Made by a program: the position numbers and the translations under genes. A DNA stretch of 54,963 nucleotides, from the NCBI RefSeq assembly GCF_019890615.1, contig NZ_JAINVZ010000034.1, forward strand, positions 1-54,963, in the 5' to 3' direction. Below, in pieces: positions 9,292 through 42,568 of this stretch. The notes below the pieces were generated by a model, which was not told where the DNA came from, did not search any database, and saw nothing but the letters and a program-made list of their open reading frames with translations. Origin of the DNA: Streptantibioticus parmotrematis (GTDB lineage: Bacteria > Actinomycetota > Actinomycetes > Streptomycetales > Streptomycetaceae). Each line of letters begins with the position of its first letter. Within the stretch, counting starts at the first letter, position 1.

Positions 9292-9334
9292 GAATAATGT
9301 CATGAGCTGCGGAAACGAGGCAGGGCATGACACG

Positions 9335-11585: not shown

Positions 11586-11595
11586 GAGTCGTGGG

Positions 11596-13119: not shown

Positions 13120-13128
13120 GGCGTTGGT

Positions 13129-13143: not shown

Positions 13144-13197
13144 TCATGTTTCTGGACGGAGGCGATCCCTGTCGGGGTCGGCTTCGAGAACGACAAT

Positions 13198-13214
13198 ATA
13201 CCTACGTTAGGTAT
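13198..13214. promoter_or_regulatory. Probable MarR operator 2
   Basis: ATACCTACGTTAGGTAT has perfect 7-bp arms around CGT and ends 4 nt before the AAGGAGG of the marR gene. With operator 1 it places a matching site next to each start in the divergent gap, consistent with repression in both directions. Confidence 0.8.
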
Positions 13215-13234
13215 CTAACAAGGAGGTGCGGCGC

Positions 13235-13720
13235 ATGGAATCGCGTAGCAACACGGCCGCGGGACTGCTGCCGACGATGCTCCAGCTGCGGACCCTGCTC
13301 AACCGGGGGCAGTTGTACGAGCTGGCCACCAAGGCCGCCGGGGTGGCGCTGGACCGGCCCGCCATGACGATCCTCGTCGTCCTCGACGCCGCCGGAGAGC
13401 CGTTGAGGGTCGGCGAGATCGCCACCCGCATGCAGGTCGTCGGCCCCCACGTCACCCGCCACCTCAACAACCTGGAGAAGCAGCGGATCATCCAGCGCGT
13501 TCCCGACCCGGACGACCAGCGGGCCCGCCTGATCGCCCTGACGCCCACGGGGCAGCGCCTCGTCGACCGCTACACCGGTGTGATCGAAGGCTGGTTCGCC
13601 GCCGCGCTGGCCGAGTGGCCCGCCCGCGACCGCACCGAACTCGCGCGCCTGCTCACTCGCCTGTCCGCCGACCTGACCACGCAACTCGACGCTGTCGCCG
13701 CCGGAGCCGGGAGCGGCTGA
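13235..13720 (+). CDS. MarR-family regulator
   Basis: 161 residues. It has the winged-helix core (LRVGEIATRMQVVGPHVTRH, LNNLEKQRIIQRVP) and the wing signature DPDDQRARLIALTPTG that identifies MarR proteins, flanked by dimerisation helices. ATG 13235 follows AAGGAGG with 9 nt spacing; the earlier GTG at 13226 abuts that site and is rejected. It is divergent from the FAD monooxygenase, with two matching palindromes between them, so it probably represses both genes until a phenolic ligand binds. Confidence 0.92.
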   Translation: MESRSNTAAGLLPTMLQLRTLLNRGQLYELATKAAGVALDRPAMTILVVLDAAGEPLRVGEIATRMQVVGPHVTRHLNNLEKQRIIQRVPDPDDQRARLIALTPTGQRLVDRYTGVIEGWFAAALAEWPARDRTELARLLTRLSADLTTQLDAVAAGAGSG

Positions 13721-25732: not shown

Positions 25733-26917
25733 CTACAGCCACTCGCCCTCCAGCGCGGTGGCGGTCAGGCCCGGCGCCGCCGCGTACAGGACGGCCCGGT
25801 CGCCCGGCTTCTGCCCGGCGTCGTACGCCCGCCGCATGATGTCGAAGACGGCGGCGCCGCCGCGGTTGCCGGTGGTGTAGCTCGCCCGGCTGTGCTCCAG
25901 CAGTCCCGCCGGCCACTCCTCGGGCATCGTCTGCTCCATGTACTCCAGCACCCGGGTCCCGCCGGGGTGCGCCAGCAGCACGTCGGGGTGCCAGGAGCCG
26001 GGGTCGTCCTGGTGACGGACCCGCAGCCACTCCCACATCGCGGTGACCGTCTCCTGCACGGCGCGGGGCCCGCGCCGGTCCATCACGAAGTGGGCGCCGT
26101 CCGCCCGGGTGTCCAGGCGGTGCAGGTCCTGCGTGCCGGGCAGGGTGTGGTGCCAGGCGGCGTCCAGCCGCAGCACCGACTCGCGCCGCGGGCGGCCGGT
26201 GACCACCGCGGCGACCGCGGTGTCCGCGAACAGCAGCCGGACGATCAGGGACTCCAGGGTGTCGTCGGCGGGCTGGTAGGTGGTGCTCAGCGCCTCCGAG
26301 ATCACGACGAGGACCACCCGGTCCGGGTCCGCGGCCACCAGGTCCGCCGCGAGCGCCAGCGAGCGGGTCCCCGCGATGCACGCCCACTGCGTGGCCGGCA
26401 GCAGCATCACGTCGTCGCGGAGCGGGAGTTCGTTGGCCAGGGCGACGTCGAGGCCCGGCAGCGCCGGGGTGGTGGAGTGACTGGTGATCAGGCAGTCGAC
26501 GTCGGAGGCGTCGAGACCGGCGCTCTGCAGGGCGCCGCGCGCCGCGCGCTCCCCGTAGGACCGCACGGCCTCCCAGGCCGGGGCGGTGCGCTCCTGCACG
26601 GTCTGCGGCGCGGGTATCGCCTCGAGGGCGGCGATCGCACGGTCCACGTCCTGTTGACCGAACCCGTCGCGCGCCAGCGCCTCCCGGGCCGCTTCGGTGC
26701 CGACGCCGCGCAGGGCGCCGCCCGCGCCGGGCGCGACGGCGGCCTCCAGCGGCAGCATCCACCCGCGGCGCTCGATGCCGGTGCTCGCCGCGATGCGGTC
26801 GATCCGCGGCGCCCACGCCGCGTCCGGGTGCTGGTCGCGCACCTGGGCCACGACCTGGCTGGTCTCCACGGCGTGCTCGCCGTTGATCACGGCGGGAGGG
26901 CAGAGGTATGCGGCCAT
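25733..26917 (-). CDS. Type III polyketide synthase (chalcone synthase-like)
   Basis: 394 residues, full length for the family. Catalytic residues fall at Cys180 (ATQWACIAGTRSLALA), His317 (LLAHPGGTRVLEY) and Asn351 (TGNRGGAAVFDIM); the spacing of 137 and 171 nearly equals that of chalcone synthase. The C-terminal AAAPGLTATALEGEW replaces the usual GFGPG loop. It condenses malonyl-CoA units onto an unknown starter. ATG 26917 has AAAGG upstream; the extension to 27040 has no support. It lies 259 nt downstream of an AfsR/SARP regulator on the same strand. No tailoring gene adjoins it. Confidence 0.83.
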   Translation of the reverse strand: MAAYLCPPAVINGEHAVETSQVVAQVRDQHPDAAWAPRIDRIAASTGIERRGWMLPLEAAVAPGAGGALRGVGTEAAREALARDGFGQQDVDRAIAALEAIPAPQTVQERTAPAWEAVRSYGERAARGALQSAGLDASDVDCLITSHSTTPALPGLDVALANELPLRDDVMLLPATQWACIAGTRSLALAADLVAADPDRVVLVVISEALSTTYQPADDTLESLIVRLLFADTAVAAVVTGRPRRESVLRLDAAWHHTLPGTQDLHRLDTRADGAHFVMDRRGPRAVQETVTAMWEWLRVRHQDDPGSWHPDVLLAHPGGTRVLEYMEQTMPEEWPAGLLEHSRASYTTGNRGGAAVFDIMRRAYDAGQKPGDRAVLYAAAPGLTATALEGEWL

Positions 26918-27176
26918 CGCGAGGCACCTTTCTGGGGAAAGCGCGGGAATGCCACGAGCGCTGTGTCGTGGATCACTTCGGGGTGTCCTGTCCGGGAGCT
27001 CGCCGGTGTGATCCGCTTCGCGGCGTGTTGTCCGTTTCAAGGATGGCCATCAAAAGGACATTTGCGCTGTGATGTAGACAACTTGGGCGGCCTTTGTGTA
27101 CGTGACACAGCACACACCGCCGGACCCGCCTCCGCCCGCCTGACGTGGCGCCAGGGCAACAGTCCGACGTCCGGGG

Positions 27177-30100
27177 CTACTTGAGCCGGTCCTCGACTCT
27201 CCGGACGTCGGGGGCCATGCCCAGGAGCCGGAAGATGTCGAGGGCCTGGTGCAGATGGGACGTGCCCTCGGCGGTGTGGCCGGTGTCGAGCAGGATCCCC
27301 CCGACGCCCTCCAGGGCCGCGGCCTCGTCGTCGCGCTTGTCCAGTTCGCGGTTCATCCCGACGGCCTGCCGGTACGCACCGAGGGCTTCCCCGGTGCGGC
27401 CCGCGGCCCGCAGGGCGGCCGCGTAGTGGGTCAGAGTCCACGCCTCGTTGCCGCGTTCGCCTGACTCGCGGAAGCCGCGCAGCGCCTCGTCCAGGTCGGC
27501 CAGCGCGCCCGTGTGGTCGCCCACCAGGCTCTTGACGGTGCCCAGATGGGTCGAGGCGATGGCCTGGCCGCTCGGCTGGTCGAGCCGCCGGTACAGCAGC
27601 AGGGCCCGGGTGAGGTCCTCGGTGGCTCCGGCGTGGTCCCGGGTGAGGTAGCGGACGGTGCCCCGCTCGGTGAGCGTACTGGCCTGCCCGAGCGGGTTGT
27701 CGAGCCTGCGGTAGAGCCGCAGGGCCCGCCCGCCCGCTTCCTCCGCGCCCGGGTAGTCGCCGGTGCGCCGCCTGACGATGGCCAGCGCGGTCAGGGCGTT
27801 GGCCTGCCCCAGCGGGTTGTCCAGCCTGCCGCAGAGCAGCAGCGCCCGGTCGAAGTCCTCCGCGGCCTCCTGGTAGTCGCCGGTGAGGAAGCGCACCGCG
27901 CCCAACTCCCGCAGTGCCAGGGCCTGCCCGGCCTCGTTGCCGACCTGCCGGTGCAGGCGCAGGCCGCGGGTGAGGTCGGCGGCGGCGTCGGAGTAGTCGC
28001 CGGTGAGCTGCCGCACCCGGCCCAGCACCATCAGGGCGTTCGCCTGGCCGAGCGCGTTGTCCAGCAGGCCGTACAGCCGCAGGGCCCGAGTACAGGCCCG
28101 CGTGGCGCCGGGGTAGTCCGCGGTGTGCATGCGGACCCGGCCCAGTTCGGTGAGGGCGTTGGCCTGCCCGAGCGGCCGGTCCAGGTCCCGGTACAGGTCG
28201 AGGGCCCGGGTCAGCGAATCGATCGCGCCGGAGTACTCCCCGGTCAGCTGCCGCAGGCGGCCCACCTCGACCAGCGCCGCGGCCCGGCCGCGGGGGTCGT
28301 GACCGGTACCAGCCAGGTCCGCGGCGGCGGCGTGCAGTTCCAGGGCCCGCGGCCAGGGACCCCGGTGGTACAGGTACGAGGCGAGCGCCGCGGGCGGGGC
28401 GACCGCGCCGTCGGGACCGGCGTGCGCGGCGGCCTGCCGGCTCGCCGCGAGCAGGTTGTCGATCTCGGCGGCCATCCAGCGCTCCGCCGCCTCGCGGTCG
28501 TTGAGCGAAGGGTGGTGGCGCGGGGCCGGGGCGGGGGCCGGGTGATCGGCCGGCAGGGTGCGCAGATGGCGGTCGGCCGATCCCGCGGTGTGCCGGTAGT
28601 AGGCGAAGAGCCGCTCCAGCGCCGCCCGTCGGCCGGGCCCGGCCTCCTCGTGCGCGGCACGGCTACGGGCGTACTCCCGCAGCAGATCGTGCAGCCGGAA
28701 CCGGCCCGGGGCCGACTCGGACAGCAGATTGTGGTCCACCAGCTCGTACAGCAGGCGCCGGGCGGCCCTGAGACCGACGTCCAGCAGCGCGGCGGCCGCG
28801 TAGGCGTCCAGGTCCGGGCCCGGCACGTGTCCGAGGCGGCGGAAGAGCGTCCGCTGCTCGGCGGACAGGTGGTGGTACGACATGTCGAAGGTCGCGGCCA
28901 GATTGCGCTCGCCGTCGTCGAAAGCCTCCAACTCCGCCTGGTCATCGCGCAGTTCGGCCAGCAGGTCGTCCAGCTGCCAGGTGCGGCGATGCCGCAGCAG
29001 GGCGGCGGCGACCCGCAGCGCCAGGGGAAGCCGTCCGCACAGCTCGACCGCCTGCCGCAGCCGCTCGTCACCGGCGGCCAGCCGCTTCACGCCGGCCGTC
29101 GTGCGGAACAGCTCGGTCGCGTCGGCGACCGGCAGGGTTCCCAGGCTCAGCGCCTCGGCGTCGTCCAGCGCCTTGAGCCGCCTGCGGCTGGTGACCAGCA
29201 CCAGGCATCCGGCGTGCCCCGGCAGCAGGGCCCGCGCCTGGGCCTCGTCGGCGACGTCGTCCAGCACGATCAGGGTGCGGGTGCCGGAGAGCAGGGCCCG
29301 GTACCTGGCCGCGCGCGCGTCGAGATCGTTCGGGACGCTGCGCGGGGGCAGGCCGAGCGTGGCCAGCGCGGTGCCCAGGGCGTCGAAGGCGGTGCGCGGG
29401 GAGGCGTCCGCGCTGTGGGTGCGCAGCTCCAGGTACAGCTGGCCGTCGGGGAACCGGTCGGCCAGGCGGTGCGCGGCGTGGACCGCCAGAGCCGTCTTGC
29501 CCACCCCGCCCATCCCGTCGATCGCGCAGATCACCGGAGCGCCGGGACGGTCTCCCGCCCGGACCCGGCCCGCCAGCCGGGCCAGCTCGGCGAGTTCGCC
29601 CGCGCGTCCGGTGAACGCGCCGGTGTCGACGGGAAGATGACGGCGGGGAGGGTCCGAAGGGGCCGGACCGTCCGCCGCCCGCCCGGCCAGCGCGTCACTG
29701 TGGGCCCGGCGCAGGGCGGGCGTGGGCAGTCGGCCCTCGCGGATGAGGGAACGCTCCGCGTGCGACGCCATCCGCGCGGCCTCCGCGGTCCGCCCGGCGC
29801 CGGTGAGCGCCCGGACCAGAGCGGCGGTGACCGCCTCGTCACCGGGGTGCCCCACCGCCAGGTCGTGCAGGAGCGCCACGGCCTCGGCGGGGCGGTCCAG
29901 CTCCCCCTCGATCTCGGCGAGCGTCAGGGCGGCTTCACGCCGTCGGCCCTCCAGCCGCTCGGCGTGCTGACGTAAGTACGGGGTGTCCAGGCCGTCGAGG
30001 GGACGGCCACGCCACAGGGCGAGCGCCTCGCGCAGCCGGTCCGCCGCGATCCCGGACTCCCGCTCCCGACGGGCGGCGCGGGCCTGCTCCACCAGGACGG

Positions 30101-30416
30101 CGAACCGCTCGGTGTCCAGGAGGGCGGGGTCGACCTGCACGCTGAAGCCGGGCCGCCGGGCCAGGAGCCGGATCCGGTCGCCGACCGGCTCCAGCGCCCT
30201 GCGCAGGCCCGAGGCGTAGTTGGCGATCTGCCGGTCGACGGTGTCCGGAGGGACCGAGGGCCAGGCCCACTCGGCCAGGTCGGCGCGCGGCACGGTACGG
30301 CCGTGGTGGAGGAGCAGGACCGCCAGGAGGCAGGTGCGGCGCCGGCTGCCCAATGGGAGCGGCACACCGTGATGCCGGATGGTCAAGTCGCCGAGCAGTC
30401 CGATACTCAGGCTCAT
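27177..30416 (-). CDS. AfsR/SARP-type regulator with NB-ARC and TPR domains
   Basis: 1079 residues. It has an N-terminal OmpR-like DNA-binding domain (SIGLLGDLTIRHHGVPLPLG...), a bacterial transcriptional activation domain to about 245, an NB-ARC ATPase with Walker A GMGGVGKTALAVH and Walker B TLIVLDDVAD, and then about seven to eight 40-residue TPR-like repeats (GDYxxAxxxxxRALxLYRxLDNPLGQA). This is the AfsR layout of global or pathway activators. Codon 148 is TTA (29975-29973 on the minus strand), so translation may depend on the bldA tRNA. The type III polyketide synthase downstream is its most likely local target. Confidence 0.9.
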   Translation of the reverse strand: MSLSIGLLGDLTIRHHGVPLPLGSRRRTCLLAVLLLHHGRTVPRADLAEWAWPSVPPDTVDRQIANYASGLRRALEPVGDRIRLLARRPGFSVQVDPALLDTERFAVLVEQARAARRERESGIAADRLREALALWRGRPLDGLDTPYLRQHAERLEGRRREAALTLAEIEGELDRPAEAVALLHDLAVGHPGDEAVTAALVRALTGAGRTAEAARMASHAERSLIREGRLPTPALRRAHSDALAGRAADGPAPSDPPRRHLPVDTGAFTGRAGELAELARLAGRVRAGDRPGAPVICAIDGMGGVGKTALAVHAAHRLADRFPDGQLYLELRTHSADASPRTAFDALGTALATLGLPPRSVPNDLDARAARYRALLSGTRTLIVLDDVADEAQARALLPGHAGCLVLVTSRRRLKALDDAEALSLGTLPVADATELFRTTAGVKRLAAGDERLRQAVELCGRLPLALRVAAALLRHRRTWQLDDLLAELRDDQAELEAFDDGERNLAATFDMSYHHLSAEQRTLFRRLGHVPGPDLDAYAAAALLDVGLRAARRLLYELVDHNLLSESAPGRFRLHDLLREYARSRAAHEEAGPGRRAALERLFAYYRHTAGSADRHLRTLPADHPAPAPAPRHHPSLNDREAAERWMAAEIDNLLAASRQAAAHAGPDGAVAPPAALASYLYHRGPWPRALELHAAAADLAGTGHDPRGRAAALVEVGRLRQLTGEYSGAIDSLTRALDLYRDLDRPLGQANALTELGRVRMHTADYPGATRACTRALRLYGLLDNALGQANALMVLGRVRQLTGDYSDAAADLTRGLRLHRQVGNEAGQALALRELGAVRFLTGDYQEAAEDFDRALLLCGRLDNPLGQANALTALAIVRRRTGDYPGAEEAGGRALRLYRRLDNPLGQASTLTERGTVRYLTRDHAGATEDLTRALLLYRRLDQPSGQAIASTHLGTVKSLVGDHTGALADLDEALRGFRESGERGNEAWTLTHYAAALRAAGRTGEALGAYRQAVGMNRELDKRDDEAAALEGVGGILLDTGHTAEGTSHLHQALDIFRLLGMAPDVRRVEDRLK

Positions 30417-30654
30417 CGCTTCCGCCCCCCCTGCTCCGGTCACCGATGTCCCGCGCCTCGCCTCAGCGCCTCACCAGCCGTGCGGCGCGTGGACTCACCA
30501 GCCGTGCGGCGCGTGGGCGCTCCACCTCAGTCTGGCCGATCAGCGCCGCGGCCCGCCTCGGTTCACGCCGAACCGACTGTGCGATTCGTGTGCTCCGATT
30601 GTGAAGTGCCGCCGCCACACTGGTCGTTCAGCACCAGAACTGGAGGAACAGACA

Positions 30655-31912: not shown

Positions 31913-32080
31913 GACGTCCGCGCACGGTGCCCGCGAGGACGCCCTCGGGCGACGGACGTGGGCCGAACGATCAGACGTCGCTGGTCCGTTGGGGCCGTAA
32001 CGCTCTGCGGGGGAACCGATGACCATCCGTGGACATCGTTATCACGAAGAGGGGTCTTCAGGAGGATGGGGGGAGTCGGC

Positions 32081-32830
32081 ATGCCGGGACACGATGCGTT
32101 AGAGCAGGTGGGGGACGGCGGGGGCGGACGCGCTCAGGCCGTGCGGGCGACGGGCGCGCGGGCGGCGGGGGACGGGACCGGGCGGGGCGTGGTGCGTGTC
32201 GTGCTGGTCGCCGAGCAGTCGGTGACCCGGGCCGGGCTGCGTTCGATCCTGACGTCGGCGCCGGGACTGTGCGTCGTGAGCGGCCACGGAGATCCGGCGC
32301 AGGCCCTCGAAGCGGTGCGCCGGGAACAGCCGCAGGTGATCCTCGTCGGCACGCGGGAAGGCCTGGCGGTGGACGCGGTCGCCGCCCGGCAGCTGCTGGC
32401 CGCGACCGTCGCGCCACGGGCGAAGGCCATCCTCCTGCACCCCGCCGAGACCACCACGGACGTCTTCCAGGTCCTCACCGGAGGCGTGCACGGCTGCCTC
32501 GATCCCGCGGCGGACGAGGAGCAGATCGTCCGGGCGGTGGAGACGGTCGCCATGGGCGGGTCGGTGTTCCTGCCCGCCCCCAGCGTCGAGCAGGCCGAGG
32601 AGCCGCTGGCGATCAGCGGGCCGACTCCGGACGAGGCCCGCCTGACCGACCGGGAGCGCGCGGTCCTGGGCCGGCTCGCCCGCGGGCTGAGCAACTCCGC
32701 CATCGCCAGGGAGCTGTTCCTCGCCGAGGCCACCGTGAAGAAGCACCTGACCCAGGCCATGCGCAAGATCGGCCAGCCCGACCGGCTGCGGGCCGGGCTG
32801 TACGCCTATCAGCACGGCATCTTCCGTTAG
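32081..32830 (+). CDS. Atypical NarL/LuxR-type response regulator
   Basis: 249 residues. A receiver-like domain (about 38-160, VRVVLVAEQSVTRAGLRSIL) precedes a clear LuxR helix-turn-helix (LTDRERAVLGRLARGLSNSA, then IARELFLAEATVKKHL). The phosphorylation site is lost: the acidic pair reads AE, the phospho-Asp position after strand 3 reads VILVGTREG, and the usual Lys is absent (GVHGCLDP). It probably responds to a ligand or to abundance rather than to a kinase, as known for regulators in antibiotic clusters. No kinase gene is adjacent. It lies 226 nt upstream of hmaS in the same direction and may be its activator. ATG 32066 is an alternative start. Confidence 0.82.
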   Translation: MPGHDALEQVGDGGGGRAQAVRATGARAAGDGTGRGVVRVVLVAEQSVTRAGLRSILTSAPGLCVVSGHGDPAQALEAVRREQPQVILVGTREGLAVDAVAARQLLAATVAPRAKAILLHPAETTTDVFQVLTGGVHGCLDPAADEEQIVRAVETVAMGGSVFLPAPSVEQAEEPLAISGPTPDEARLTDRERAVLGRLARGLSNSAIARELFLAEATVKKHLTQAMRKIGQPDRLRAGLYAYQHGIFR

Positions 32831-32852
32831 CCGACGTCAGCTGCCGTCGGCT
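32829..32852 (+). terminator. Hairpin overlapping the regulator stop codon
   Basis: AGCCGACG and CGTCGGCT form an 8-bp stem with an 8-nt loop that begins within the stop codon of the regulator gene. It likely separates its transcript from the hmaS operon. Confidence 0.55.
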
Positions 32853-33056
32853 GAAGCTGTCGTTAGCTGAAAGGCACATGCGGAGGGCGACGTTCGGAGT
32901 ATTCCTCAGGCGCCGTCGAGACCGTACCGGTCGCCGAAGGTGTGTTCTTCGCCGTACCGGCCGCCGGATAATTTGGTGTCGCTCTTTCGGGCCGCCCAGC
33001 CCTGCCCCACGGAAATAGGGCGGGCGGCCACTCGCCCATACCACTGCGGGGGTTTC

Positions 33057-34139
33057 GTGAGCGACTTCACCATCAGCCATGTCGAATTCCACGTGGGCGA
33101 CGCCCGGCAGGCCGCCTACTACTACCGCACCGCGTTCGGATTCCGCACGATCGCCGAAGGCGGCCCGGAAACCGGTCTCGAGGGCCGCAGGTCGGTCCTC
33201 CTGGCCCAGGGCGACATCCGCCTCCTCCTGACGTCCGATCTGACGACGGACGGCCCGGTCGCCCGCTACGTGGCACGCCACGGCGACGGAGTGGCGAACG
33301 TCGCGCTGCGCACCCGGGACGCCGGGCGGGCGCTGCGCACGGCGCTCGACCACGGCGCCGAGCAGGTCACGGGCCTGCACACGGTCGAGCAGCCCGACGG
33401 CACCGTCTCGACCGCCGCCGTGCGCGCGTTCGGCGACACGGTCCACTCCTTCGTGCAATACGAGAACGACGACCAATTACCGGGCCCGTACCTGCGCTGG
33501 GTCGACACCGCGGACGACCGGCCGGAAGAAGGCGAACTCCTCGCCACTCTCGACCATTTCGCGGTCTGCCTTCCCGCCGGTGAACTGAAGAAGACCGTGG
33601 ACTTCTACCAGAACGCGCTGGGATTCAGCGAGGCGTTCGAGGAGTTCATCGAGGTCGGCGACCAGGCCATGGAATCCAAGGTGGTGCGCAGCCCTTCCGG
33701 CGCCGTCACCTTCACGTTCCTGGAACCCGACGTGCGGCGCAAGCCGGGCCAGATCGACGCCTTCCTCGACGCGCACGGCGGAGCCGGTGTCCAGCACCTC
33801 GCGTTCGGCACCTCGGCCATCGCCGGAGCCGTGCGCCGACTGTCCACGCAGGGCGTCGACTTCCTGCACACCCCGGCCACGTACTACGACGCGGTCGAGG
33901 GCCGGGTGGGCCCGCTCGGCGGCGACCTGGACGTGCTGCGCGAGCTGTGCGTGCTCGCCGACCGCGACCAGTGGGGCCTGCTGTACCAGATCTTCACCCG
34001 CTCCCCGCACGCCCGGGGGACGTTCTTCCTCGAACTCATCGAGCGGCGCGGCGCGCAGACCTTCGGCAGCGGCAACATCAAGGGCCTGTACGAGGCGGTC
34101 GAGCGGGCCCAGGTGGCCGCCGGCGCGGGCGCCCGGTGA
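33057..34139 (+). CDS. hmaS: 4-hydroxymandelate synthase
   Basis: 360 residues with two vicinal-oxygen-chelate halves. Fe(II) ligands are His167 (TLDHFAVCL), His247 (GVQHLAFG) and Glu326 (FFLELIERRG), with the spacing of known HmaS enzymes. Where 4-hydroxyphenylpyruvate dioxygenases have NEP, this protein has FLEP, as in hydroxymandelate synthases (IEP), and the end (FGSGNIKGLYEAVE) also matches HmaS. It converts 4-hydroxyphenylpyruvate and O2 to 4-hydroxymandelate and CO2. Codon 141 is TTA (33477-33479), implying bldA control. It is first in a coupled operon: its TGA overlaps the hmo GTG. The ribosome binding site (GCGGGGG) is weak. Confidence 0.9.
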   Translation: MSDFTISHVEFHVGDARQAAYYYRTAFGFRTIAEGGPETGLEGRRSVLLAQGDIRLLLTSDLTTDGPVARYVARHGDGVANVALRTRDAGRALRTALDHGAEQVTGLHTVEQPDGTVSTAAVRAFGDTVHSFVQYENDDQLPGPYLRWVDTADDRPEEGELLATLDHFAVCLPAGELKKTVDFYQNALGFSEAFEEFIEVGDQAMESKVVRSPSGAVTFTFLEPDVRRKPGQIDAFLDAHGGAGVQHLAFGTSAIAGAVRRLSTQGVDFLHTPATYYDAVEGRVGPLGGDLDVLRELCVLADRDQWGLLYQIFTRSPHARGTFFLELIERRGAQTFGSGNIKGLYEAVERAQVAAGAGAR

Positions 34140-35287
34140 CGGCGACCACTGTCGGCCGCCCCCTGACGATCGAGGAGTACGCCCCCCTCGCCCGGGCCCG
34201 GCTGCCCGAGGCGACCTGGCACTACTTCGAGGGCGGGGCCGGTACGGAGAGCACCGTCGAGGCCAACCGTGCCGCGTTCCGCCGGGTCCGGATCCGGCCG
34301 CGCGTGCTGAGCGACGTCTCCCACTGCGACACCTCGACCACGATCCTGGGCGAACCGGCCTCCGCCCCGCTCGGCGTCGCGCCCATGGCGTACCACGAAC
34401 TCGCCTGCGAGGAGGGCGAGGTGGCCACCGTCCGGGCCGCCGGTGAGCTGCGGGTGCCCACCGTGGTCGGCATCTTCGCCAGCAGATCCTTCGAGCGGAT
34501 CGCCGAACACGCCACCGGCCCGGTGTGGTTGCAGCTGTACTGGCTGCACCGGCGGGGCGTGCTGGAGCGCGTGGTGCGCCGCGCCGAGGACGCCGGGTTC
34601 CGCGCCCTGGTGCTGACCGTGGACACGCCGCGGCTGGGCCGGCGGCTGCGGGAGGCCCGCCACGGCTTCCACCTGCCGCCGCACATCACCGCGCCCAACC
34701 TGGACGGCGAGGTCACCGGGTTCCTGCACGAACACGAGGACGGCAGTTCGGCCCTCTCCCGGCACGCCGACGCGTTCATCGACCCCTCGCTGAACTGGTC
34801 GGACCTGGACTGGCTGCGCTCCCGCACCCGGCTGCCGATCGTGCTCAAGGGCGTGCTCTCGGCGGCGGACGCGGCCCGCGCGGCCGACCTCGGCGTCGAC
34901 GCGCTGATCGTGTCCAACCACGGCGGCCGCCAACTCGACGGTGCGAGCGCCACGTTGGACGCGCTGCCGGACGTGGTGCGGGCGGTCGCGGGCCGCTGCC
35001 CGGTCTTCCTCGACGGCGGAGTGCGCGGCGGGACCGACGTGCTCAAGGCGCTCGCCGCCGGGGCCCGCGCCGTGTTCGTCGGCCGCCCCGTGCTGTGGGG
35101 ACTGGCCGCCGCGGGCGAGGCCGGAGCGCGCGACGTGCTCACGCTGCTGCGCGACGAGCTGGAGGACGCCATGGCCCTGGCCGGCTGCCCGTCGCTCGAC
35201 TCCCTCACCCCGGACCTACTGGACCGAGGGGCCGCCGCGGTCGCCCCCGCCGCCTCGTACGACGAATCCCCGGAAGGACGACGATGA
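34136..35287 (+). CDS. hmo: 4-hydroxymandelate oxidase
   Basis: 383 residues, an FMN-dependent alpha-hydroxy-acid oxidase. Key residues are Tyr30 (WHYFEGGAG), Lys238 (VLKGV), His262 and Arg265 (VSNHGGRQLDG), and the phosphate-binding LDGGVRGGTDVLKALAAGA. It oxidises 4-hydroxymandelate to 4-hydroxybenzoylformate, the second specific step of 4-hydroxyphenylglycine formation. GTG 34136 overlaps the hmaS stop, and its own stop overlaps the ATG of the next gene. Confidence 0.9.
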   Translation: MTATTVGRPLTIEEYAPLARARLPEATWHYFEGGAGTESTVEANRAAFRRVRIRPRVLSDVSHCDTSTTILGEPASAPLGVAPMAYHELACEEGEVATVRAAGELRVPTVVGIFASRSFERIAEHATGPVWLQLYWLHRRGVLERVVRRAEDAGFRALVLTVDTPRLGRRLREARHGFHLPPHITAPNLDGEVTGFLHEHEDGSSALSRHADAFIDPSLNWSDLDWLRSRTRLPIVLKGVLSAADAARAADLGVDALIVSNHGGRQLDGASATLDALPDVVRAVAGRCPVFLDGGVRGGTDVLKALAAGARAVFVGRPVLWGLAAAGEAGARDVLTLLRDELEDAMALAGCPSLDSLTPDLLDRGAAAVAPAASYDESPEGRR

Positions 35288-36195
35288 CCGAATCAGCGTT
35301 CCGCCTCAGTGACGAAGACCGCGCGCTGCTGCCCTCCGAGGAGGAAGTGGCGTTCTACCAGGAACACGGCTGGTACCTGTCGAAGAAGCTGCTGACCGAC
35401 GGGGAGGTCGACGCGCTCGACGCCGCGGCCGACCGCTTCTACGCCGGACACCGCGACCGCACCCTGCCCGTGCGGCCGCCGCGCCTGGCCTACTGGGAGC
35501 CCTCCCGAGGCGACGTGCACCGGCACAACGACTACATCTTCTACGAGGACGACACCGTCCGCCGCATCCTGTCCAAGCCGCTCATCGGCGCGGTCGCCGC
35601 GCGGATCGCGGAGACCGGTCAGATACGGCTGTGGAACAGCACGCTGATCCACAAGCCGCCGCGCCCGGAGGACGAGGGCAACATCGTGCCCTGGCACTTC
35701 GACCGGCACTACTGGCAGACCTGCACCTCCGACGAGATGCTGACCGCCTTCGTCCCCTTCCACCACTGCGACGAGGAGCTGGGGACCATCACCATGGTCG
35801 ACGGCAGCCACCGCTGGAAGGAGATCGGCGGCAACGACGCGACCACCCGGCACTTCGCCGAACGCGACCGCTCCGAGCTGGACGAGATGCTGGAGGAGAA
35901 CGCCGCGTTCAACAACGAGACCGTCCGCAAGGTGCCCGTCGTCATCCCCAAGGGGCACATCAGCTTCCACCACTGCCGCACCTACCACGGCAGCGGGCTG
36001 AACCGCGGCACCCGCCCGCGCCGCGCGATCTCCTTCCACCTCCAGGACCAGGCCAACCAGTGGCGGCCGTTCCGGATCTCCACCGGCGAGCAGGTCGTCT
36101 ACAACAACGACGTCCTGGTACGGAAGACCGCCGACGGCCACCCCGACTACGCGGACCCGGACTTCTGCCCGGTGCTGTGGCAGGAGCAGCCGTAA
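35284..36195 (+). CDS. PhyH-like Fe(II)/2-oxoglutarate dioxygenase
   Basis: 303 residues. The metal triad is visible as His138-x-Asp140 (VPWHFDRHYW) and His235 (TYHGSGLN), with Arg246/247 to bind 2-oxoglutarate. It belongs to the phytanoyl-CoA dioxygenase family, which hydroxylates or otherwise oxidises small molecules and free or carrier-bound amino acids. It is embedded between hmo and hpgT with overlaps on both sides (ATGA and TAATG), so it must be co-translated with the pathway. It is not one of the four enzymes needed to make HPG, and it probably modifies the product or an intermediate. No adjacent carrier protein is seen. Confidence 0.88.
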   Translation: MTESAFRLSDEDRALLPSEEEVAFYQEHGWYLSKKLLTDGEVDALDAAADRFYAGHRDRTLPVRPPRLAYWEPSRGDVHRHNDYIFYEDDTVRRILSKPLIGAVAARIAETGQIRLWNSTLIHKPPRPEDEGNIVPWHFDRHYWQTCTSDEMLTAFVPFHHCDEELGTITMVDGSHRWKEIGGNDATTRHFAERDRSELDEMLEENAAFNNETVRKVPVVIPKGHISFHHCRTYHGSGLNRGTRPRRAISFHLQDQANQWRPFRISTGEQVVYNNDVLVRKTADGHPDYADPDFCPVLWQEQP

Positions 36196-37514
36196 TGGCG
36201 CGGCCCGGACCGGACGCCGAACTCACGTCGGCGCAACTGCACTCCTCGCTGTCGGACCCGTTGCTCGACGTGATGAACTTCCTCAACGAGGTGACCTCGC
36301 GTCACCCCGAGGCGATCTCGTTCGGCCCGGGCCGCCCCTACGACGGGTTCTTCGAGGTGGACCGGATCGGCGACTACCTCACCGCCTACACCCGCTACCT
36401 GGAGACCGACCTCGGACGCACGCCCGAGGAGGTGCGCACCGCGCTGTTCCAGTACGGGCGCACCAACGGCCAGATCAACGACCTGGTCGCCCGGACGCTC
36501 GCCAACGACGAGGACATCCACGTCGATCCGGCGCACGTCGTCGTCACCGTCGGCTGCCAGGAGGCGATGCTGCTGGTGCTGCGGGCGCTCGTCACGGGTC
36601 CCGACGACGTGGTGCTGGTGACCGATCCGGGGTACGTGGGCATCACCGGCGCGGCGCGGCTGCTGGACGCCGAGACGGTGCCGGTGCCCGAGGACGAGGC
36701 GGGGCTCGACCCCGACGCGCTGCTCGCGGCCGTCCGGGAGGTACGCGCCCGGGGCAAGCAGCCGCGCGCCGTCTACGTCATCCCCGACTTCGCCAACCCC
36801 TCCGGCACGTCGATGCCGGTCGACCGGCGCCGCCGCCTGCTCGAACTCGCGGCGGAAGAGGACCTGTTGCTGCTGGAGGACAACCCGTACGGGTTCTTCA
36901 GCCGCACCGGGGAGCACCGGCCCACGCTGAAGTCGCTCGACACCCGCCACCGGGTCGTCCACTTCGGGTCGTTCGCCAAGACTTGCTTCCCCGGCGCCCG
37001 CGTCGGCTACGTCATCGCGGACCAGCCGGTCGTGACCGCGAGCGGCGCGCGCACGGTCCTGGCGGACGAACTGTCGAAGATCAAGAGCATGGTGACGGTC
37101 AACACGCCCGCCCTCGCCCAGGCCGTGATCGGCGGGATGCTCGTTTCCTACGACTGCCGGCTGCGCGAGGCCGACAAGGACCTCGTCGACTTCTACCGCG
37201 GCAACATGGAAGCCCTGCTGGCCGCGCTGGACCGGCACCTGCCGCAGGACCGGTGGCCGGTGCGGTGGAACGTGCCGGACGGCGGCTTCTTCCTCTCGCT
37301 GACCGTGCCGTTCGACGCCGACGACGCGTTCCTGCGGGAGTCGGCCGGCGACCACGGGGTGATCTGGACCCCGATGCGCTACTTCCACCTGGGCAGCGGC
37401 GGCGAACGGCAGATCAGGCTCTCCGCCAGCTACCTCACGCCGCACGAGATCGACGAGGGGGTGCGGCGTCTCGCCGGGCACGTCATCGAGCGCCTCACCC
37501 AGGGCGACCGATGA
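36195..37514 (+). CDS. hpgT: 4-hydroxyphenylglycine aminotransferase
   Basis: 439 residues, a fold-type I PLP aminotransferase of the length of HpgT/PglE. PLP Lys262 (GSFAKTCFPGARVGY), the Asn-Pro pair at 201 (DFANPSG), and Asp229/Tyr232 (LLEDNPYGFF) are in place. Neighbouring hmaS and hmo make the expected substrate 4-hydroxybenzoylformate, giving 4-hydroxyphenylglycine; in known systems tyrosine is the amino donor, regenerating hydroxyphenylpyruvate. Its ATG overlaps the preceding TAA, and its TGA overlaps the pdh ATG. Confidence 0.88.
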   Translation: MARPGPDAELTSAQLHSSLSDPLLDVMNFLNEVTSRHPEAISFGPGRPYDGFFEVDRIGDYLTAYTRYLETDLGRTPEEVRTALFQYGRTNGQINDLVARTLANDEDIHVDPAHVVVTVGCQEAMLLVLRALVTGPDDVVLVTDPGYVGITGAARLLDAETVPVPEDEAGLDPDALLAAVREVRARGKQPRAVYVIPDFANPSGTSMPVDRRRRLLELAAEEDLLLLEDNPYGFFSRTGEHRPTLKSLDTRHRVVHFGSFAKTCFPGARVGYVIADQPVVTASGARTVLADELSKIKSMVTVNTPALAQAVIGGMLVSYDCRLREADKDLVDFYRGNMEALLAALDRHLPQDRWPVRWNVPDGGFFLSLTVPFDADDAFLRESAGDHGVIWTPMRYFHLGSGGERQIRLSASYLTPHEIDEGVRRLAGHVIERLTQGDR

Positions 37515-38617
37515 GCGAGACCCCCCTGCGCACGGCCGCCGTCGTCGGCACCGGCATGATCGGCACCTCCGTGGCCCTCGCCCTGACGGAACGCGGCGTC
37601 ACCACGCACCTGATCGACCGGGACCACGCGGCGGCCCGTACCGCCGCGGAACTCGGCGCCGGTACCGCCGAGTTACCGGGCTCCCCGGTGGACCTCGCGG
37701 TGCTGGCGGTGCCGCCCGCGAGCGTGGCGGCCGTACTGGAACAGCACCAAAGGAGCGGACTGGCCCGCACCTACACCGACGTGGCCAGCGTCAAACGACC
37801 GCCGCAGGCCGACGTGGAGGCCCGCGGCTGCGACCTGGCCTCCTTCGTCGGCGGTCACCCCCTGGCCGGACGGGAACGCTCGGGGCCGCTGGCCGGACGG
37901 GCCGACCTGTTCGGCGGCAAACCCTGGGTGCTGACGCCCGGCCGGGCGACGCGCCGGGCGGCGATGGCCCGGGTGCTGGAACTGGTCAGGCTGTGCGGCG
38001 GCGTGCCCGTCGTGCTGAGCCCCGACGACCACGACGAGGCCGTGGCGCTCGTCAGCCACGCACCGCACCTGCTGTCCAGCCTGATGGCGGCCCGGCTGCG
38101 CGGCGGCCCGCACTCCTCGGTCCGGCTCGCCGGTCAGGGACTGCGGGACGTCACCCGCATCGCGGCGGGCGACGCCGCTCTGTGGACGGACATCCTGGCG
38201 TCCAACGCCCCGGCTGTGGCACGGGTGCTGGGCGACGTGGCCGACGACCTCGCGGAGGTGCTGACCGCCCTGCGCGGCCTGGCGTCGGTCGACGCCGTCA
38301 CCGCGCGGACCCATCCGGCCGCCGCGCACCTCACGGCGCTGCTCGCCCGCGGCAACGAGGGACACGCGCGAATCCCCGGCAAACACGGGGGAGAGTCCGT
38401 AACGTACTCATCGGTTCGGGTCGTTCTGCGGGACCGGGCGGGCGAGTTGGCCCGGGTGCTCACCGACGCGTCGGGCACGGGGGCCAACATCGAGGACATC
38501 CGTCTCGACCACGCGACGGACGGCGACACCGGGCTCGTGGAACTGCTGGTGGCGGGCGAGTCCGCCGACGCGCTCGCCGCCGGACTGCGGCGCCGGGGCT
38601 GGCCCGTCCACGAGTGA
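37511..38617 (+). CDS. Prephenate dehydrogenase with C-terminal ACT domain
   Basis: 368 residues. An N-terminal NAD(P) Rossmann motif (VVGTGMIGTSVALAL) and TyrA-type catalytic region (GGHPLAGRERSGPLAGRADL; DDHDEAVALVSHAPHL) precede a C-terminal ACT module (VVLRDRAGELARVLTDASGT), which often binds a feedback amino acid. It supplies 4-hydroxyphenylpyruvate from prephenate, the entry step of the HPG pathway, as pathway-specific Pdh does in glycopeptide clusters. Codon 55 is TTA (37673-37675). The start overlaps the hpgT stop. Confidence 0.9.
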   Translation: MSETPLRTAAVVGTGMIGTSVALALTERGVTTHLIDRDHAAARTAAELGAGTAELPGSPVDLAVLAVPPASVAAVLEQHQRSGLARTYTDVASVKRPPQADVEARGCDLASFVGGHPLAGRERSGPLAGRADLFGGKPWVLTPGRATRRAAMARVLELVRLCGGVPVVLSPDDHDEAVALVSHAPHLLSSLMAARLRGGPHSSVRLAGQGLRDVTRIAAGDAALWTDILASNAPAVARVLGDVADDLAEVLTALRGLASVDAVTARTHPAAAHLTALLARGNEGHARIPGKHGGESVTYSSVRVVLRDRAGELARVLTDASGTGANIEDIRLDHATDGDTGLVELLVAGESADALAAGLRRRGWPVHE

Positions 38618-38682
38618 CGGCGCGGGACGCGACAGAGACGACACCGGCCGGACGTGACGAGCGATTGCGGAGGAGTACGACC

Positions 38683-39714
38683 GTGCGGGCAGCAGTGATG
38701 TTCGGAGCAGGCGACGTCCAGGTGAGGGAGGTGCCCGATGCCCGGCTGACCCGGCCGACCGACGCGGTGGTGCGGGTGACCCACGCCGCCGTCTGCGGCA
38801 GCGACCTGTGGCGCTACCAGAAACTCGCGCCGACGCCCGACGGCGTGCGGGTCGGGCACGAGTTCATCGGCGTGGTCGAGGAGACCGGCGCGGACGTCAC
38901 CTCCGTGCGACGCGGCGACCTGGTGCTGGCGCCGTTCAAGTGGTCCGACGGAACGTGCGAGTTCTGCCGCGCGGGACTGCACTCGTCGTGTCTGAACGGC
39001 GGGTTCTGGGGCGGGGAACTGGACGGCGGGCAGGGCGAGGCCGTGCGGGTGCCGCAGGCGGACGGCACGCTGGTCAAGCTCGATCCGGAGCCGGACGACC
39101 CGCGGCTGCCCGCGGTGCTGGCGCTGTCCGACGTGCTGTGCACCGGCCACCACGCCGCCAAGGCCGCGCGGGTCGGACCCGGCACCACCGTCGCCGTGGT
39201 CGGTGACGGCGCCGTCGGCCTGTGCGCGGTCCTGGCCTGCGTCCGCCTGGGCGCGGACCGGGTGATCATGCTGGGACGGCATGCCCGGCGCACCGACCTG
39301 GCCCGCCGCTACGGCGCCCACGAGGTGGTCGCCGAGCGCGGCGAGGCCGCCGTCGAGCGTGTCCGGGAGCTGACCGGCGGGCACGGCGCGCACGCCGTGC
39401 TGGAGTGCGTGGGGACGGGAGCGGCGCTGCGCGACGCCCTGGACATGGCCCGCCCCGGTGGCGCGGTCGGCTACGTGGGAGTGCCGCAGGACGGCGAGGG
39501 CGTCGACGTGCGGCGCTTCTACCGGCGCAACGTCACCCTCGCGGGCGGCGTGACCCCGGCGCGGGCCTACGTGCCGGAGCTGCTGCCCGACGTGCTGTCC
39601 GGACGGCTCGACGCCTCCGCGGTCTTCGACCGCACCGTGGCGCTGGACGGTGTCCCGGACGGCTACAAGGCGATGGCGGAGCGCGAGGCCCTCAAGGTCC
39701 TCATCCGCCCCTGA
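38683..39714 (+). CDS. Zinc-dependent alcohol dehydrogenase, last gene of the HPG operon
   Basis: 343 residues, MDR superfamily. The catalytic zinc region is VCGSDLWRY (Cys38) and VGHEF (His59-Glu60). The structural zinc loop DGTCEFCRAGLHSSC keeps three cysteines with Asp in place of the first. A Rossmann motif VVGDGAVGLCAVLA follows. GTG 38683 has GGAGGAG 7 nt upstream and gives the standard N-terminus; the GTG at 38614 overlapping pdh is rejected. It lies 65 nt from pdh and before a strong terminator, so it is probably part of the operon. It may reduce or oxidise a pathway intermediate, for example an alcohol created by the dioxygenase; the substrate is not evident. Confidence 0.9.
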   Translation: MRAAVMFGAGDVQVREVPDARLTRPTDAVVRVTHAAVCGSDLWRYQKLAPTPDGVRVGHEFIGVVEETGADVTSVRRGDLVLAPFKWSDGTCEFCRAGLHSSCLNGGFWGGELDGGQGEAVRVPQADGTLVKLDPEPDDPRLPAVLALSDVLCTGHHAAKAARVGPGTTVAVVGDGAVGLCAVLACVRLGADRVIMLGRHARRTDLARRYGAHEVVAERGEAAVERVRELTGGHGAHAVLECVGTGAALRDALDMARPGGAVGYVGVPQDGEGVDVRRFYRRNVTLAGGVTPARAYVPELLPDVLSGRLDASAVFDRTVALDGVPDGYKAMAEREALKVLIRP

Positions 39715-39722
39715 ACCCACAC

Positions 39723-39776
39723 CGCGCGGGCGCCTCGGGAACGGCGAAAACCAGCCGTTCCCGAGGCGCCCGCGCG
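39723..39776. terminator. Very strong bidirectional terminator
   Basis: A perfect 23-bp stem ending in CTCGGGAACGGC, with an 8-nt A-rich loop, lies 8 nt after the dehydrogenase stop and 3 nt from the stop of the convergent phzF-like gene. Confidence 0.95.
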
Positions 39777-39778
39777 CG

Positions 39779-40573
39779 TCACGCCCTCAGTTCGCCCTCG
39801 AACACCGTCACCGCACGGCCCACCAGCGCGACCCGCTCACCACGCAACGCGACCCCCAGCTGCCCGCCGCGCGGCGAGAGTTGACGTGCCGTCAATTCCG
39901 TACGGCCCAACCGCCCTGCCCAGTAAGGGGCGAGAACGCAGTGGGCGGCGCCGGTGACCGGGTCCTCCGGGATCCCCGCGGCGGGGGCGAAGACCCGGGA
40001 GACGAAGTCGTGGTCCGCGCCCTCGCGGGCCCGTGCGGTGACGATGACCGCCCGGCCGCTGAACTCCGCCAGCGCGGCGATGTCCGGGGCCAGTCCGCCG
40101 ACCGTAGCCGCGTCCCGCACCTCGACGACCAGGTCGTGGCTCGCCCGGCCGGTCCACACCGGTTCGGTGCCCAGCGCCTCGGCCAGCCGCTCCGGCACGG
40201 CATCCTCGGCCGGCGGATCCACGGGGAAGTCCAAGGTGACGCGACCGTCACCCGCTGGGCGCGCCGTGAGCACACCGCTGAGGGTGTCGAACGACACGGC
40301 GGCGTCGGGGGAGACGCCGCACGCCGTGTACAGCACGTGCGCGGTGGCCAGGGTGGCGTGACCGCACAGACTCACCTCCACCGTTGGAGTGAACCACCGC
40401 AAGCCGTAAGTGCGTTGATCCACCGGGTGCACGAACGCCGTTTCCGAGAGGTTGAGTTCGGCGGCGACCCGCTGCATCCAGGACGGATCGGCCGGGGCGT
40501 CCAGCATGCACACTCCGGCGGGATTCCCGGCGAAGGGCCGGTCGGTGAACGCATCGACGATGAAGGCGCGCAT
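39779..40573 (-). CDS. PhzF-family isomerase/epimerase-like protein
   Basis: 264 residues of the two-domain PhzF/DapF-like fold. The N-terminus (AFTDRPFAGNPAGVC), the catalytic-Glu motif NLSETAFV, the LCGHATLATAHVL loop and C-terminal EDPVTGAAHCVLAPYW are all family signatures. These enzymes isomerise small acids by proton transfer; most members outside phenazine clusters have no known substrate. It is convergent with the HPG operon and divergent from the exporter gene, so membership of the cluster is possible but unproven. Confidence 0.92.
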   Translation of the reverse strand: MRAFIVDAFTDRPFAGNPAGVCMLDAPADPSWMQRVAAELNLSETAFVHPVDQRTYGLRWFTPTVEVSLCGHATLATAHVLYTACGVSPDAAVSFDTLSGVLTARPAGDGRVTLDFPVDPPAEDAVPERLAEALGTEPVWTGRASHDLVVEVRDAATVGGLAPDIAALAEFSGRAVIVTARAREGADHDFVSRVFAPAAGIPEDPVTGAAHCVLAPYWAGRLGRTELTARQLSPRGGQLGVALRGERVALVGRAVTVFEGELRA

Positions 40574-40810
40574 GCTCGCGACGTTACGGAACGGCCGGGC
40601 GCCCGAGGGCGGAACAGGCCCGAGCGGCGCTCTTCGGAGCAGGGCCGATCGCCCATTGGAGAGGGACGAACGGTCCGAGAGGGGACTGTCTGCGTGCCCC
40701 GCGGATCGTTAGCATCACTGATCGACCGCTCGCCACACCGATGGCGTTCGCCACCACACCGTCGCCGTGACGGCGGGCGCAGGCCGCACCCGCCCGGCGG
40801 AAGGGCAGGT

Positions 40811-42085
40811 ATGCAGACCACGCAAGCCAAGGTCCCGCCGTTATTGCTCGCGGTGCTCATCTCCCTGAGCGTCGGCGGACTGATGTCCTCGGACATCAAC
40901 CTCCCCGGGCTGACCCGGACCGCCCACGCGCTGGCCACCTCCACCTCCGCGGTCCAGGCGACGTTCAGTCCCTACCTCGTGGGGCTGCTGGTGGCCCAAC
41001 TGCTGTACGGGCCCTGGTCCGACGCGGTCGGGCGGCGCCGACTCGTCATCGGCGGGTTCTCGCTCTACGCGGTCGCCTCGCTGGCCTGCGCGCTGTCGCC
41101 GGACATCGCGGTCTTCGCCGTCGCCCGGCTGCTCCAGGCGCTCGGCGCGGGCGCGGGCCTCGTCCTGGCCCGGGCCATCGTGGGCGACCTGTACGGACAG
41201 CAGACCGCGGCGCGGGTGTTCACCACGATCATGCCGGTGGTGGGCGCGTCACCGGCGATCTCCCCGCTCATCGGCGGCTACCTCACCACGTACCTGTCCT
41301 GGCGCTCGCCCTTCGTGCTGACGGCCGTGATCGCGGCGGTCACCGTCATCGTCGTGGTCCTCAAGGTGCCGGAGTCCCTGCCGGACGAACGACGCGCGCC
41401 CAGGCTGCGCGCGACCGCGGGCAACTACCGCAGGCTGGCGCTGAGCGCGAAGTTCTGGGGCTACGGGCTCAACCTCGGCGTCGGCTACGCCGTCTACACC
41501 GGCTATCTGGTCGCCTCCCCGGTGATCTTCCAGCGTCTGGGCATGAGCACCGAGGTCAACGGCTACTGCTACATCAGCATCGCCGCCGCGTACATCTCGG
41601 GAAACCTCGTCTCCCGCCGCCTGCTCGCCCGGTACTCGGTCGACCGGTTGCTGGCCCGGGGCCATCTGATCTTCTCCGGCGGCGCGTTGCTCCTGCTCGC
41701 CGTCGGACTGACCGATCCGCACACCCCGTGGCCGCTGCTGGTCCTGATGACCGTCGTCACCATCGGCAACGGCTTCCTCTTCCCGATGTCCGTGACCGGC
41801 GGGGTGACGTCGTTCCCCACCATGGCGGGGGCGGCCTCGGGGCTGCTGGGGGCGGTGCAGATGGCCGGGGGCAGCCTGTCGTCGCTCCTGGTGAGCAAGA
41901 TCCCGCCGGACACCCGGTCCTTCGCGATCCTGGTCGCCGCCTTCGCGTTCGTCGGCCTGGCCGCGTTCCACGGCCTGCGGGCCCTGTCGGCCCACGCGGC
42001 CGCCGCGTCCCCGACCGCCCCCGCCACCACTGGCGCGTCCGCGCCCGCCTCCACCACCGCAACCGCATCAGCGAACGAAGACTGA
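40811..42085 (+). CDS. MFS drug-resistance-type exporter (Bcr/CflA-like)
   Basis: 424 residues with 12 predicted membrane helices, DHA1 type. Motif A is visible as YGPWSDAVGRRRLVIGGF, and the motif C-like region is VVGASPAISPLIGGYL. The Ala/Thr-rich tail is cytoplasmic. It probably exports a small molecule by proton antiport. Codon 11 is TTA (40841-40843), the same rare codon found in hmaS and pdh, which ties its expression to the same developmental timing. RidA follows after 12 nt. Confidence 0.9.
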   Translation: MQTTQAKVPPLLLAVLISLSVGGLMSSDINLPGLTRTAHALATSTSAVQATFSPYLVGLLVAQLLYGPWSDAVGRRRLVIGGFSLYAVASLACALSPDIAVFAVARLLQALGAGAGLVLARAIVGDLYGQQTAARVFTTIMPVVGASPAISPLIGGYLTTYLSWRSPFVLTAVIAAVTVIVVVLKVPESLPDERRAPRLRATAGNYRRLALSAKFWGYGLNLGVGYAVYTGYLVASPVIFQRLGMSTEVNGYCYISIAAAYISGNLVSRRLLARYSVDRLLARGHLIFSGGALLLLAVGLTDPHTPWPLLVLMTVVTIGNGFLFPMSVTGGVTSFPTMAGAASGLLGAVQMAGGSLSSLLVSKIPPDTRSFAILVAAFAFVGLAAFHGLRALSAHAAAASPTAPATTGASAPASTTATASANED

Positions 42086-42097
42086 GGAGAAACACCG

Positions 42098-42568
42098 ATG
42101 GGCCAGGTCTCCCGCCGCCTCACCGACATGGGACTGACGCTTCCGCCCCTGCTGCCGAAGCTCGCGAACTACGTGCCGACGAAGACGGTCGGCGAACTCG
42201 TCTTCGTCTCCGGGCACGGCCCCCTCAACCCGGACGGGTCGGTCAAGTACCGGGGCCGCCTCGGGGACGACTTCACCGTGGAGGACGGCAAGGAGGCCGC
42301 CCGCCTGGTCACGCTGAACATGCTGACGGCCCTCCAGGCCGAACTCGGTGACCTGGACCGTGTACGGGAGTTCGTCAAGCTCCTGGTCATGGTGCGGTGC
42401 ACGCCCGAGTTCGAGGAACAGCACGTGGTCGCGGAGGGCGCCTCCGACCTCCTCACCGAGGTCTTCGGCACGCAGGTCGGCTCGCACGCCCGCTCCGCCG
42501 TGGGCATGATGAGCCTGCCGTTCGGCATCGCGGTGGAGATCGAGGCGGTCGTCCGCATCACCGCCTGA
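42098..42568 (+). CDS. RidA/YjgF-family protein
   Basis: 156 residues, somewhat longer than classic RidA (about 130), with the family core VGELVFVSGHGPLNPDG and the C-terminal trimer-forming segment (GMMSLPFGIAVEIEAVV). The classic catalytic Arg region reads HARSAVG. RidA proteins hydrolyse reactive enamines or imines from amino-acid metabolism or act as specialised enzymes in biosynthesis. It is coupled to the exporter gene (GAGGAG, 12 nt gap) and would fit a pathway that handles an unusual amino acid. Confidence 0.88.
   Translation: MGQVSRRLTDMGLTLPPLLPKLANYVPTKTVGELVFVSGHGPLNPDGSVKYRGRLGDDFTVEDGKEAARLVTLNMLTALQAELGDLDRVREFVKLLVMVRCTPEFEEQHVVAEGASDLLTEVFGTQVGSHARSAVGMMSLPFGIAVEIEAVVRITA

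Follow-up and report, generated by a model that had tools for sequence, protein, structure and literature searches.

4-Hydroxyphenylglycine (HPG) is generally viewed as a precursor for peptide antibiotics, and the HPG genes of glycopeptide and calcium-dependent antibiotic (CDA)-type clusters accompany nonribosomal peptide synthetases (NRPSs). Here we describe a set of HPG-type genes in Streptantibioticus parmotrematis, on contig NZ_JAINVZ010000034.1 of assembly GCF_019890615.1. The window, i.e. the whole stretch of DNA analysed, is the entire contig (C28; 54,963 bases) of a 7.4 Mb genome in 83 contigs. On balance, its gene content and conservation favor the view that positions 31958–42568 form a compact, NRPS-free biosynthetic cluster, in which an arylglycine altered by a PhyH-family oxygenase would be reworked and exported as a small product.

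A co-inherited ten-gene unit

The core of the locus is a chain of five forward-strand genes, hmaS (33057–34139), hmo (34136–35287), phyH (35284–36195), hpgT (36195–37514) and pdh (37511–38617), which overlap successively by 4, 4, 1 and 4 bases. A 65-base gap separates pdh from a gene for a zinc-type medium-chain dehydrogenase (alcohol dehydrogenase, ADH; 38683–39714, forward strand; PF08240/PF00107), followed by a terminator-like hairpin at 39723–39776. The hairpin lies between two convergent genes and is a perfect inverted repeat, with 23-nt arms (39723–39745 and 39754–39776) that are 100% complementary. These coordinates, families and repeat agree with the preliminary description of the locus, which reported the overlapping chain with the dehydrogenase as its last gene before a 23-bp terminator.

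The co-inherited unit is larger than this hmaS-to-ADH core. A search with PhyH gave 72 loci in named genomes, and the same ten genes are present in the same order in five other Streptomyces: S. nigrescens, S. endophytica, Streptomyces sp. NRRL S-337, S. alanosinicus and S. sioyaensis (loci L039–L043). Protein identities between the window and these five loci range from 68% to 91%, with locus genes called by their third-position GC (GC3) bias and approximate starts for neighboring genes. When 28 non-core window genes were compared with the five loci, four (a regulator, a PhzF-family isomerase, a Bcr/CflA-family carrier and a Rid-family protein) were matched in all five, and two others had matches of 35–37% in L043 only; the flanks of the loci match each other only among L039, L040 and L041. 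Because the four non-core genes are shared throughout and the flanks mostly differ, the unit is 31958–42568. The preliminary description had suggested looking for the same gene order without NRPS genes in other genomes, and these five loci answer to it, as no NRPS motif was found within 10 kb of the block in any of them; the block itself also lacks the NRPS that an HPG cluster of the NRPS type would contain.

The zinc ADH is found at only these five of the 72 PhyH loci. Two of the strains, S. nigrescens and NRRL S-337, carry the block together with a second operon in which an EamA-type exporter gene follows hpgT (L039 with L048, and L041 with L053), and this coexistence suggests that the additional genes of the block change the product.

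HmaS and the other HPG enzymes

The residues and nearest structures of the HmaS protein, rather than a family model, point to a 4-hydroxymandelate synthase type. It has FGSGNI and VTFTFLEPD at the places where the one separate 4-hydroxyphenylpyruvate dioxygenase (HPPD) of the genome, 40% identical to it, has FGKGNF and VKFPLNEPA; that is, it has the synthase-type Ile in FGSxNI and lacks a Pro/Asn pair in the VTFTFLEP stretch. The nearest solved chains are 3zgj and 2r5v, which we take to be the S. coelicolor and Amycolatopsis synthases. The Ile of FGSGNI probably corresponds, by matching of residue numbers, to Ile355, given as a gate residue of S. coelicolor Hms in PMC3720870.

Hmo (PF01070) is a flavin mononucleotide-dependent 2-hydroxyacid oxidase, probably a 4-hydroxymandelate oxidase; among solved chains it matches the 4-hydroxymandelate oxidase 5zzp with an E value of 2.4e-88, and lactate and glycolate oxidases score slightly better. 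HpgT is a pyridoxal phosphate-dependent aminotransferase (PF00155) whose nearest chains are aminotransferases; its family assignment is class I/II aminotransferase only, and the HpgT name comes from context. Pdh (PF02153/PF20463) scores above the cut-off of the NCBIfam prephenate dehydrogenase model. The combination of HmaS, Hmo and an aminotransferase has been used in an engineered phenylglycine route, according to PMC7089894.

The PhyH oxygenase is a near-dedicated partner of HmaS

The third gene of the chain codes for a PhyH-family Fe(II)/2-oxoglutarate oxygenase (PF05721, E value 2.1e-22). The HxD...H iron triad and the 2-oxoglutarate-binding Arg are H138, D140, H235 and R246, all invariant in 41 aligned sequences, and identity to the window protein is 59–91% across 71 actinobacterial or proteobacterial loci. 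The predicted model (mean predicted local distance difference test score 92.4; predicted template modelling score 0.91) has SnoK, SnoN, MysH, human PhyH and the free amino acid hydroxylases H11 and GriE among its nearest folds, which would fit a small substrate without proving one; the top match by Z score is RESC14, which belongs to an RNA-editing complex.

This oxygenase almost always accompanies HmaS. At 70 of the 72 loci hmaS lies upstream of phyH and within about 2.5 kb, the other two being L109, a cyanobacterial relative with 41% identity, and L110. We also surveyed 394 genomes of the family, using E-value cut-offs of 1e-76 for HmaS and 1e-30 for PhyH; the counts are lower bounds, with five candidates scored per genome for HmaS and at most five for PhyH, and 111 of 112 PhyH rows were used (a 252-base fragment in G073 was dropped). 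At least 99 of at least 111 PhyH matches have an HmaS match within 3 kb, and the HmaS matches (at least 149) divide into 99 with PhyH within 3 kb and 50 without. In trees of HmaS, Hmo (a quick version) and HpgT the PhyH-linked label requires 4 changes, compared with means of 18.6, 15.4 and 10.9 for shuffled labels, and none of 500 shuffles was as low. PhyH-linked L087, L089 and L197 group with rows that lack the link, which means that the label arose more than once. The trees were also considered as a guide to which intermediate PhyH uses, and were uninformative on substrate order.

The 72 loci differ in what accompanies the shared genes. Classed by marker genes, with domains checked in examples, five have the ADH/PhzF/Rid block, 16 have EamA after hpgT, 45 have ketosynthase lines, four have ATP-grasp ligases, and two have neither. 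The EamA type is the simplest output, consisting of the HPG genes, PhyH and an exporter; no adenylation motif was found within the 16 loci of this type, and it also occurs on a 616-kb S. angustmyceticus plasmid. The near-constant pairing of HmaS and PhyH with four different outputs suggests a common, undescribed PhyH-modified arylglycine.

Three groups of loci have features of their own. L059, L063, L066 and L107 combine ATP-grasp ligases with hmaS-phyH-pdh-hpgT-hmo, with a luciferase-like oxygenase in the first three, and likely assemble the shared amino acid into a small peptide without an NRPS. Outside the actinobacteria, L104, titled Burkholderia multivorans, has the order hmaS-phyH-hpgT-EamA, its hmaS truncated at the edge of the contig, together with a weak Hmo relative (41%), and may be contamination. 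A Planktothrix agardhii plasmid (L275) codes for a 43% identical PhyH near genes for an aminotransferase, an alkene reductase, a short-chain dehydrogenase/reductase, an L-aspartate oxidase and an asparagine synthase.

In the titles and abstracts of open-access articles in PMC we found no account of a PhyH partner for HmaS, nor of HPG enzymes that function without any NRPS and together with a dedicated PhyH. The HPG enzymes themselves are known; the NRPS-free use and the dedicated PhyH partner appear to be new, and there is a real chance that a new amino acid lies behind them.

A proposed pathway

From protein families and from the HmaS-PhyH pairing we infer a route together with an export step and a role. 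Pdh would convert prephenate to 4-hydroxyphenylpyruvate, HmaS would convert this to 4-hydroxymandelate, Hmo would oxidize 4-hydroxymandelate to 4-hydroxybenzoylformate, and HpgT would transaminate the latter to an HPG-type amino acid. PhyH would insert oxygen into one of the intermediates or into HPG itself, before or after transamination. The ADH, and probably PhzF and Rid, would then carry out redox, isomerization and imine clean-up reactions on the PhyH product, chemistry of the kind that a partly dearomatized ring would need, although this last point is speculative. The Bcr/CflA carrier would export the resulting small molecule, for which the most likely roles are those of an antimetabolite or a signal; in other bacteria, the altered arylglycine may be exported or built into larger molecules.

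The preliminary description proposed that HPG is made here and then oxidized by PhyH and the dehydrogenase. An HPG-type pathway that is independent of any known NRPS and has PhyH as a part of it is supported by the HmaS residues, the ten-gene block in five other species, the failure to find a common NRPS, and the HmaS-PhyH pairing. HPG is no better a candidate for the PhyH substrate than 4-hydroxymandelate or 4-hydroxybenzoylformate, and the ADH, found at none of the 72 loci but the block ones, is only a candidate for the next step. Forphenicine-type compounds had been offered as a product class. Forphenicine has an extra formyl carbon relative to HPG, so that such a pathway would need a source of this para formyl carbon and of a meta hydroxyl. 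Family matching recognized no gene in the block as a candidate one-carbon supplier, and the suggestion finds no support here; no paper on forphenicine biosynthesis was found by title in open-access PMC.

More broadly, and with somewhat less than even confidence, we propose that HmaS with PhyH constitutes a widespread actinobacterial extension of the HPG pathway leading to one undescribed oxygenated arylglycine, possibly ring-hydroxylated or dearomatized. Its fates would be free export, joining by ATP-grasp ligases, carrier-protein loading with ketosynthases, or, in the present block, conversion by ADH, PhzF and Rid to a small antimetabolite that needs no NRPS. With the HPG enzymes apparently in a compact, synthetase-free cluster, one would expect a small-molecule product that is reachable by simple heterologous expression. 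If PhyH does make a new amino acid, the usual reading of many clusters as plain HPG clusters is mistaken, and both a non-proteinogenic amino acid not yet described and the enzyme that makes it would be at hand.

Alternative explanations

Several observations weigh against a free, PhyH-altered arylglycine as the product of the block. The HmaS protein passes the NCBIfam 4HPPD equivalog model above its cut-off, and one family member bears the name hppD from the Prokaryotic Genome Annotation Pipeline (PGAP). The ketosynthase lines that accompany the HmaS-PhyH pair at 45 of the 72 loci are not a use as free amino acid. Twelve of the 111 PhyH matches have no HmaS match within 3 kb, and the nine of these that were read (L181–L189, out of L180–L191) gave no clue to the substrate; L181–L183 are still ketosynthase-type clusters, and identity to the window PhyH falls to 43% in L188 and 40% in L189. 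L184–L187 have a different gene setting, so the PhyH family can act outside an HPG-type pathway. Finally, the S. parmotrematis genome codes for a freestanding adenylation enzyme (L150:1114–2829, reverse strand) at the end of contig C1, with the specificity residues D-L-F-M-A-G-L-A-C, five of nine of which are shared with the HPG code. We note that the PhyH relatives in L184–L187, which lack HmaS, are 53–59% identical to the window protein, and that L184 and L185, perhaps another small-molecule cluster, have thymidylate synthase-like, B12 radical SAM, HAD, FemAB-like and MFS genes.

The L150 enzyme slightly lowers our preferred explanation and raises the one in which HPG, or an oxidized form of it, is made here for an NRPS, or for a freestanding adenylation enzyme, that is encoded elsewhere and acts in trans, the block being an ordinary precursor operon. 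The preliminary description was correct that no NRPS lies near the operon; since the window is a whole contig, this absence proves little alone and other tests were needed. None of the 38 condensation-domain matches in the genome is on the window contig, and 38 domains elsewhere leave room for a partner. Of 31 adenylation domains taken by motif from 18 fetched regions of the genome, 30 were partly read, and the 29 other than L150 are without the HPG-like pattern of L322 plus C/W331. No orthologue of the L150 enzyme was found in the other five genomes with the block (best match 39%); it is no common partner of the block and could serve its own strain. A giant ten-module NRPS in the same genome (C1:460711–500923; L133–L135), consisting of two proteins with a beta-lactamase-like thioesterase, has orthologues at about 71% in three block carriers (S. 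nigrescens, NRRL S-337 and S. sioyaensis), and corresponding condensation-domain and thioesterase matches are among those listed for S. endophytica. Its thioesterase is present in 47 of the 394 family genomes, and the NRPS was found at 76–79% in all five genomes selected because they have a close thioesterase but no HmaS or PhyH match, a choice that passed over other thioesterase carriers that do have HmaS (e.g. G133 and G057). In 12 contigs of S. alanosinicus, the closest carrier (PhyH 91%), that are among those listed with condensation domains, no match of at least 55% over 300 amino acids was found to the NRPS-region open reading frames of S. parmotrematis that were tested; its best match to the giant-NRPS thioesterase is only 36%, and none of the 12 agrees in length with its 437-kb block contig. 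The co-occurrence of the giant NRPS with the block had pointed to a link in trans, which was rejected because the NRPS is present in the five genomes without HmaS or PhyH matches and no orthologue of it was found in S. alanosinicus. In L039–L041 two small NRPS genes are located some 20 kb away from the block (among the matches listed), and the copy compared, that of S. endophytica (L273), has no orthologue among the S. parmotrematis open reading frames. No NRPS common to all block carriers was found, and use in trans by an NRPS seems unlikely.

Less probable still is that the pathway stops at unmodified L- or D-HPG, which would be exported as such, with PhyH, ADH, PhzF and Rid doing side or clean-up work. 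L-HPG is the drug oxfenicine, and the block does contain the HPG enzymes together with an exporter; freestanding non-proteinogenic amino acids are mentioned as antimetabolites in PMC7089894. The conservation of PhyH, its invariant active site and its place beside HmaS at all but two of the 72 loci argue for a required step. We consider it very improbable that the operon serves tyrosine degradation, with the HmaS protein acting as a catabolic HPPD: the 4HPPD model and the hppD name on a relative speak for it, and the synthase-type residues, the separate HPPD in the genome, and the presence of a prephenate dehydrogenase, a regulator and an efflux carrier in the block speak against it. We retain the NRPS-free cluster with a PhyH-altered arylglycine as the best explanation of the block.

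Remaining genes of the block and the window

The block begins with a forward-strand gene for a LuxR/NarL-type regulator (31958–32830; GerE domain), whose start is uncertain, the conserved part beginning at about 32100; copies with 68–75% identity occupy the same position in all five block loci. Receiver domains usually carry a phosphorylated Asp in a characteristic stretch, and the regulator has VILVGTREG in its place, as does that of S. alanosinicus; the protein may thus be atypical, perhaps ligand-sensing. Beyond the hairpin are a reverse-strand gene for the PhzF-family isomerase (39779–40573; PF02567, and above the TIGR00654 cut-off; 74–77% identity in all five loci) and two forward-strand genes, coding for the Bcr/CflA-family efflux MFS transporter (40814–42085; above the TIGR00710 cut-off; 82–87% in all five) and the Rid/YjgF-family protein (42098–42568; above the cut-offs of PF14588 and PF01042 and below that of TIGR00004; 85–87% in all five), whose family suggests imine or enamine handling.

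The only adenylation protein in the window (4131–7727) has AMP-binding, carrier and NAD_binding_4 domains and is carboxylic-acid-reductase-like, as previously proposed. It belongs to a region (4131–13720) that also includes a GntR regulator, a flavin/iron-sulfur oxidoreductase and a flavin adenine dinucleotide-type aromatic hydroxylase with a MarR regulator, and none of its genes had a counterpart among those of the five block loci. At 25733–27040 a type III polyketide synthase-like gene adjoins a large BTAD/NB-ARC-like regulator gene (27177–30443, named by eye), and this pair is not conserved with the block in the same five loci.

Comparison with known systems

SnoK, SnoN, MysH, GriE, H11 and human PhyH have the same fold as the window PhyH (VIA Z of about 22–26; Foldseek E values of 1e-14 or lower) and also the HxD...H motif and Arg, but are only about 15–26% identical to it, and a substrate cannot be read from the fold alone. 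The NRPS clusters of glycopeptide and CDA type have the same HPG enzyme families (hmaS, hmo, hpgT and pdh), and presumably the same route; relative to them, as they are generally known, the block lacks an NRPS, both within it and within 10 kb at the five loci, and adds PhyH, ADH, PhzF, Rid and Bcr/CflA. The closest relatives are the HmaS-Hmo-PhyH-HpgT-EamA operons of S. noursei and 15 other loci, and that of the S. angustmyceticus plasmid, which are not known to yield any compound. They have the same core, in the same order in 13 Streptomyces loci, L087 and L089, and are sister to the block in the HpgT tree (100/96) and the quick Hmo tree, but carry an EamA exporter instead of the ADH, PhzF, Rid and Bcr/CflA genes of the block.

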